Shown here: piece after piece, positions 8,780-9,315 of the stretch
Layout of the letters: each line of letters begins with the position of its first letter
Position numbering within the stretch: the stretch's first letter is position 1
Origin: a virus
IMG/VR virus record: IMGVR_UViG_3300017764_000155
Coordinates: 1 to 20,336 of that record
Reading direction: 5' to 3' (one strand)
Length of the DNA stretch: 20,336 nt
Translations under genes and position numbers: made by a program
Notes under the pieces: model-generated
The model's database searches: none
The model's input: the letters and a program-made list of their open reading frames with translations, nothing else
What the model was told of the DNA's origin: nothing

Positions 8780-9094
8780 TTATTTCCTTGACATGTATGC
8801 TTGAGCACCAAAGTAAAACCCAACAATTGATGCTTGACCTATGTAAAATAATCCAAGTAAATCTCCAAGAGCAGAAACTCTTGATTCTGGTACGATAGGT
8901 GTAAAAAGAAAAGCAGTAAAGATTACCATACTTGAAATTGAAACCCATGACATTCTTTTTTGAGCTTCTGCTTTTTCTTCTCTTAATTCTAATTCTAATA
9001 TTTCAGTTGCACGTTTCATTTCTTCATCTGTTATTGTACCATCATTATTTAAATCGTATTGTTTGATATAAGTTTGTAATGGTTTATTAGGCAT
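8780..9094 (-). CDS. EF-hand protein with two membrane segments
   Basis: This 104-residue protein has a canonical 12-residue EF-hand loop at Asp14-Glu25 (DLNNDGTITDEE: Asp1, Asn3, Asp5, Gly6, Ile8, Glu12), a charged helix (about 26-47), then two hydrophobic segments (about 50-68 and 76-101) and a short basic end. The ATG overlaps the stop of the frameshift ORF (TAATG). The gene ends just before the tape-measure gene. Two membrane helices with a soluble calcium-binding N-terminus suggest a holin-like or membrane-channel role. A virion protein acting at the host membrane during DNA entry is the other option given its place in the tail block. No family can be named with confidence. Confidence 0.75.
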   Translation of the reverse strand: MPNKPLQTYIKQYDLNNDGTITDEEMKRATEILELELREEKAEAQKRMSWVSISSMVIFTAFLFTPIVPESRVSALGDLLGLFYIGQASIVGFYFGAQAYMSRK

Positions 9095-9294
9095 TATTGA
9101 TGTTTCCTATTAGCCTCTTCGTGTTTGCGTTTCATCTCTTCTTCTTCAAGGTGTTGTAAGAGTAAACCAACGTAAATTTCTCTCTCCCAAGGCATCATTC
9201 TTTCAACATCATGAAGACTGTACTTATGATGTTGAATTAATGAAAATGTTAAACGATAATAATTTTCTAAATTATTATGAGAGAGACATACTAA
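9094..9294 (-). CDS. -1 frameshift extension of gp26 (gp51 position, tail-chaperone GT-like)
   Basis: This frame is open from the T-run at the end of gp26 through 66 codons to TAA (9096-9094). It has no ATG, GTG or TTG before MMPWEREIYVG, late in the frame. The product begins LVCLSHNNLENYYRLTF, then LIQHHKYSLHDVERMMPWEREIYVGLLLQHLEEEE and a charged tail. The N-terminal half looks too well-structured to be untranslated. It lies in the -1 frame relative to gp26 and is entered exactly at T_TTT_TTT. In T4 gene 51 follows gene 26, and in many tailed phages a G/GT frameshift chaperone precedes the tape measure. A 298-residue gp26 fusion is therefore predicted. Internal initiation at MMPW, giving about 42 residues, is the alternative. 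Confidence 0.75.
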   Translation of the reverse strand, partial: LVCLSHNNLENYYRLTFSLIQHHKYSLHDVERMMPWEREIYVGLLLQHLEEEEMKRKHEEANRKHQ

Positions 9295-9315
9295 AAAAAA
9301 TTTTGAAGTCCTTCT
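9256..9315 (-). promoter_or_regulatory. Programmed -1 ribosomal frameshift signal
   Basis: On the minus strand: an internal Shine-Dalgarno-like AGAAGGA (9315-9309), an 8-base gap, a run of eight T (9300-9293) that in the gp26 frame reads T_TTT_TTT followed by TAG, then 15 bases to a 10-bp A/T hairpin (ATAATAATTT / AAATTATTAT, loop AGA; 9278-9256). The slippery run plus upstream SD resembles the dnaX and lambda G/GT type of signal. The hairpin is A/T-only and its spacer is longer than usual, so its contribution is less certain. Confidence 0.7.

Follow-up and report, generated by a model that had tools for sequence, protein, structure and literature searches.

A conserved T TTT TTY heptamer predicts −1 frameshifting between gp26 and a gp51 domain in the tail-assembly chaperone of an uncultured T4-like phage

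The window, as we call the whole 20,336-base virus record analysed here, carries T4-type tail genes (gp48/gp53-like, tail tube, gp2, gp26 and tape measure), and the putative frameshift lies on its minus strand. Gene 26 (9989-9291, −) encodes the short form of a tail-assembly chaperone (TAC-N) of 232 aa, matching PF12322 with an E of 1.7e-66 and phrog_150 with an E of 8.6e-73. The 3' end of the gene reads CTT CAA AAT TTT TTT TAG, such that a run of eight T (9300-9293) contains the slippery heptamer T TTT TTT (9300-9294, −), with the zero-frame stop TAG (9293-9291, −) directly 3' of it. The first-pass annotation had described exactly this ending, T_TTT_TTT TAG within eight T, and its reading is borne out at 9300-9291 (−). 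The −1 frame entered at this point is open for 66 codons (9294-9097, −) and encodes a gp51/TAC-C domain, identified by conservation and a profile match. It closes with a TAA (9096-9094, −) that overlaps the ATG of the next ORF (TAATG). This ORF (9094-8780, −) encodes a 104-aa EF-hand-like protein (EF-hand_5 at E 3.1e-5, which is below Pfam's cut-off; phrog_27150 at E 2.1e-7), and is the one small ORF between the chaperone region and the adjoining tape measure gene (8774-5097, −; phrog_58, tail length tape measure, E 5.2e-19), the product of which is the expected chaperone client. Melnitz has a relative of the tape measure at the same place, two genes downstream of the chaperone, and an ORF with DTNGDGKVSDEE at the position matching the EF-hand-like ORF of the window.

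The window also contains, at 284-644 on the plus strand, a permuted tmRNA gene of the alphaproteobacterial type (Rfam RF04321, 98.4 bits), for which ARAGORN predicts the tag ANNSDYTSAQVAIAA. The Melnitz report (PMC9004378) describes a two-piece tmRNA similar to that of the window, and the window virus may therefore belong to the SAR11/OM43 group of Melnitz.

The −1 frame opens with TTA GTA TGT and does not reach an ATG until codon 33, with no earlier GTG or TTG; the earlier description of a 66-codon frame that is startless for most of its length thus holds. The encoded domain matches phrog_634 (baseplate hub assembly catalyst) with an E of 2.1e-26, and the predicted product of gp26 plus its −1 extension would be 298 aa. 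A tblastn search with the −1 domain found 581 phage records at E <= 1, and among the matches listed (60 tblastn rows) the alignment starts at the first query residue, which corresponds to the heptamer. In deposited relatives, this second part is either annotated as a short separate gene 51 or left unannotated. No stop codon occurs in the −1 frame across 80 sequences of 48 codons, compared to 427 and 347 in the other two frames. Substitutions in the −1 frame, counted in the 76 sequences with an ungapped PWER anchor (four were dropped), favour third positions (52%), and the median dN/dS is 0.13 for the 116 of 400 sampled pairs with a usable dS.

To follow the junction across relatives, we assembled 80 viral contigs from a gp26 protein search together with S-RSM4, Melnitz-3 and the window, using search patterns drawn from the gp26 body and not from the junction. 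The resulting 83 loci, which are mutually related and not independent, provided 81 distinct junctions after two duplicates were dropped; one locus (L024) runs off its contig. A canonical X XXY YYZ heptamer of the form T TTT TTY, positioned in the overlap before the zero-frame stop, is present at all 81 distinct junctions. The preceding codon always ends in T (AGT, TCT, GAT, AAT, GCT or GGT, encoding S, D, N, A or G). The first Phe of the junction is TTT in every case, compared to a pooled TTT use of 0.744, while the second is TTC in 72 junctions and TTT in nine. Other Phe-Phe pairs inside gp26 take the form T TTT TTY in only 1 of 85 cases. A log10 probability of −24.8 calculated for the junction pattern presupposes independent loci and is given no weight here. 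Conservation of the T-run and of the −1 frame among related phages had been proposed as a check on the frameshift, and both are seen. Hence, the programmed −1 frameshift put forward in the first-pass annotation appears well supported by comparative sequence, and we assign a probability of roughly 0.9 to the reading that gene 26 yields a short chaperone and, by a −1 slip at T TTT TTT, a 298-aa long form.

The same junctions bear on other explanations of the overlap. Were gp51 a separate small protein initiated at an internal ATG, the overlap would reflect translational coupling only. Separate short gp51 genes are indeed annotated in S-RSM4 (g51, 135 nt), Melnitz-3 (144 nt), Mosig (135 nt) and DLP6 (183 nt), and the first ATG is found at the fourth or fifth −1 codon in 32 of the 81 junctions. 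However, the window offers no start until codon 33 of 66, 31 of the 81 junctions lack any ATG, GTG or TTG within the first 15 −1 codons, and the conserved block starts at the heptamer, which is itself invariant. Furthermore, in T4-type phages the gp51 domain is known only as part of a longer protein, and we consider independent initiation improbable. A shade less probable still is transcriptional realignment, in which slippage of RNA polymerase on the eight T would produce an altered mRNA that encodes the fusion. The T8 of the window could permit such slippage, but the 72 junctions that read T TTT TTC contain six T only and keep the same frame relation; the selected pattern is the heptamer and not the run length. 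A run of six T is too short for much polymerase slippage. We give next to no credence to a homopolymer read error within what is really one uninterrupted gene 26-51 ORF: eight-T runs are error-prone and the window is an IMG/VR virus contig, but six T are enough in most relatives, where the −1 relation holds in independent contigs and in the isolates S-RSM4, Mosig, DLP6, nt-1 and Aeh1, which refutes read error as a family-wide explanation and, by the same token, speaks against transcriptional slippage.

Two elements had been noted on either side of the heptamer. The SD-like AGAAGGA (9315-9309, −) is indeed present 8 nt upstream, and in 69 of the 81 junctions an SD-like purine stretch precedes the heptamer by 11-13 nt. 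The mean anti-SD energy of the 81 junctions is −6.55, compared to −5.46 for synonymous shuffles and −2.75 for the gp26 body. As the junction is only somewhat better than its synonymous shuffles, most of the signal follows from the encoded residues, and an SD-like element beyond codon constraint is modestly supported across the relatives by these comparisons. In the window itself the signal is weak (−5.4 versus −5.04 for synonymous shuffles), and AGAAGGA is a possible stimulator. The 10-bp AU-rich hairpin (9278-9256, −), which begins ~15 nt past the heptamer, also exists as described, but it is probably not functional. Its folding energy including the outer stem is −4.2 kcal/mol (z −1.70), 14 of 200 shuffles fold equally well, and pairing in 8 close relatives is not above chance (67.8% of cells paired, shuffled mean 68.3%). 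With the pairing neither conserved nor covarying, a stimulatory role for this hairpin in the window was rejected. Downstream folding energy is lower in 64 of the 81 junctions when raw values are taken, base composition not being controlled, and an Rfam scan of the window revealed no element at the junction.

We next consider the relation to T4 gp26 and gp51, which the first-pass annotation suggested to be the split equivalent of G and GT. T4 gp51 (249 aa) covers positions 13-280 of the 282 in the phrog_150 (gp26 family) profile with an E of 2.6e-84 and includes a gp26-like part (PF12322, E 3.9e-52). The downstream domain is located at residues 200-244 of T4-type gp51, while T4 gp26 consists of the N domain only. 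In profile alignments, window gp26 corresponds to residues 14-182 of the long gp51 and the −1 domain to residues 200-244. The slippery site and its invariance, the coding −1 frame and its collinearity with the naturally fused T4-type gp51 are observed. Given that T4 gp51 has both domains and gp26 the N domain only, these profile matches indicate that T4 possesses a short copy and a long copy, i.e. duplicated genes and not two halves of one; the earlier suggestion is partly correct, but the notion of a split does not hold. The link between T4 gp51 and window gp26 rests on Pfam, PHROGs and hhalign; BLASTP between the two gives only an E of 0.08, and an N-domain HMM built here did not find T4 gp51 itself. 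The two T4 genes are divergent, on opposite strands, and no slippery site is present at a T4 gp26/gp51 junction.

Of 14 reference records read, five have two genes, and in the other nine a single gp26 gene leads into an open −1 frame. T TTT TTY stands at the junction in seven of the nine single-gene records (S-RSM4, Melnitz-3, Mosig, DLP6, Yut2, nt-1 and Aeh1), and is absent from Salmonella phage Matapan and Vibrio phage D492. An HMM of the −1 domain (E <= 0.1) likewise recovered seven of the nine, missing Yut2 and D492, whose −1 ORFs resemble the gp51 domain by eye only. The two-gene records (T4, Aeromonas 31, a Krischvirus, an Acinetobacter phage and RB43) each encode a long gp51 with an in-frame C domain plus a short gp26. 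In an N-domain tree of 29 rows, all long forms fall in one group (99/98) and the frameshift forms all lie on one side of a branch (98/98); T4-type gp26 does not form a single clean group, and three terminal branches are long. The tree is consistent with a single duplication, albeit with some long branches. In RB43 (L101, 3001-4294), the genes for long gp51 and short gp26 share a strand, where they overlap in tandem; this arrangement contrasts with the divergent T4 order and looks like a relic of tandem duplication. In one genome of the T-even type (L094, 4001-4746), the gp51 frame is broken mid-gene, by read error or for real.

A different junction is seen in Ackermannviridae, where gp26 ends in GAR ATT TTC ATT TAA at all 12 viral-contig loci among the matches listed (18 found). 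The canonical heptamer is absent from the gp26 end of these 12 listed loci of 18, and their −1 frame is open through a conserved gp51-like C domain. A similar-looking site occurs in Vibrio phage D492 (TCA CTT TTC AAG TAA), again with a C domain open in −1. The Ackermannviridae and D492 gp26 loci that combine a −1 C domain with a non-canonical site are L188-L205, L096 and L098, and in the Matapan record the −1 extension of gp26 is unannotated. The pattern suggests that the Ackermannviridae chaperone might be produced by a single-tRNA −1 slip, with the P-site Phe moving from TTC to TTT, or by another recoding route. We tentatively propose, at somewhat less than even odds, that frameshifted chaperones extend beyond canonical sites and, together with the duplication in the T4 lineage, represent three solutions within one homologous gene family.

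AlphaFold2 models of a T4-type long gp51 (pLDDT 87.5) and of window gp26 (pLDDT 85.8) display much the same order of elements, with gp51 adding three C-terminal helices. For the window gp26 model, the best VIA-align match is the HK97 tail assembly chaperone (2ob9) with a Z of 7.8, a value under 8 and within the range reachable by unrelated models; 83 residues are aligned between gp26 residues 1-85 and the 107-residue chain, at an rmsd of 3.8 and 7% identity. The next rows are YqbN (3klu) with a Z of 7.0, followed by a Z of 3.0. YqbN belongs to a chaperone family and is encoded by a Bacillus subtilis prophage. Foldseek alone gave an E of 3.2 for the gp26 model. These models are suggestive of a chaperone fold shared by the gp26 N domain with the HK97 protein and YqbN. 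Sequence searches against solved structures returned nothing convincing for window gp26 (one match, E 0.6), no match for T4 gp51, and three matches for the gp26 profile (best E 0.11), none convincing. The long gp51 model had 0 of 148 Foldseek matches to the PDB at E <= 0.001, and its best VIA-align Z was 5.0, with no chaperone among the matches listed. Against predicted viral structures it produced 26 matches at E <= 0.001, the named ones being mostly T4-type baseplate hub proteins.

The lambda G/GT system resembles what is proposed for the window in making short and long forms by a −1 shift late in the first ORF, and in placing the second ORF shortly before the tape measure gene. It differs in its slippery site (GGGAAAG versus T TTT TTY in the window family) and in that the EF-hand-like ORF intervenes in the window. 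Using single lambda sequences, and hence weak profiles, hhalign gave no alignment of note between lambda G or T and gp26/gp51; a scan for lambda T relatives gave 80 near-identical loci, which were set aside. The HK97 chaperone, whose fold match covers gp26 residues 1-85, lacks a counterpart to the ~145 further residues of gp26. T4 gp26 and gp51 are homologous to the short and long forms of the window, respectively, but occur as two divergent genes without a slippery junction. The G/GT-like role originally suggested for this locus finds good support in sequence comparison and gene order, to which the fold adds a suggestive similarity.

A recoding review (PMC5009743) describes G-T frameshifting as widely conserved except in T4. 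T4-like phages with one short and one longer fused gene were reported by Vladimirov et al. 2022, as cited by PRFect (PMC10274946), and the Adele paper (PMC12846349) refers to that study for −1 signals of the poly-T kind in T4-like TAC genes. As quoted there, the T4-like TAC genes of the 2022 study have short and long forms and a poly-T −1 signal, as in the window, with some phages using separate short and long genes; the window virus is another, uncultured member. Since the arrangement is already in print for T4-like phages, the window chaperone is a strongly supported new example of a described system and not a new phenomenon.

Taken together, we propose that gene 26 of this T4-like marine phage would be translated mainly into the short form of the chaperone, while at T TTT TTT, immediately ahead of the stop codon, a minority of ribosomes would move back by one base, with tRNA-Phe re-pairing in both the P and A sites. 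Slipped ribosomes would read through the gp51 domain to give the 298-aa long form. By analogy with lambda G/GT, the tape measure protein, whose gene is the second one downstream, would be coated by the short form, and subunits of the tail tube or hub would be recruited through the gp51 domain of the long form. Slippage itself, its rate and the binding partners are what we infer from the locus.

The gp26/gp51 family would thus reach the same two-protein output by recoding in one branch and by gene duplication in another. If the proposal for Ackermannviridae is true, a non-canonical slip, a canonical frameshift and the T4 duplication that replaced frameshifting would all lead to the same two proteins. 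With two routes to the same output, the ratio of short to long form that is required should be testable in laboratory T4.
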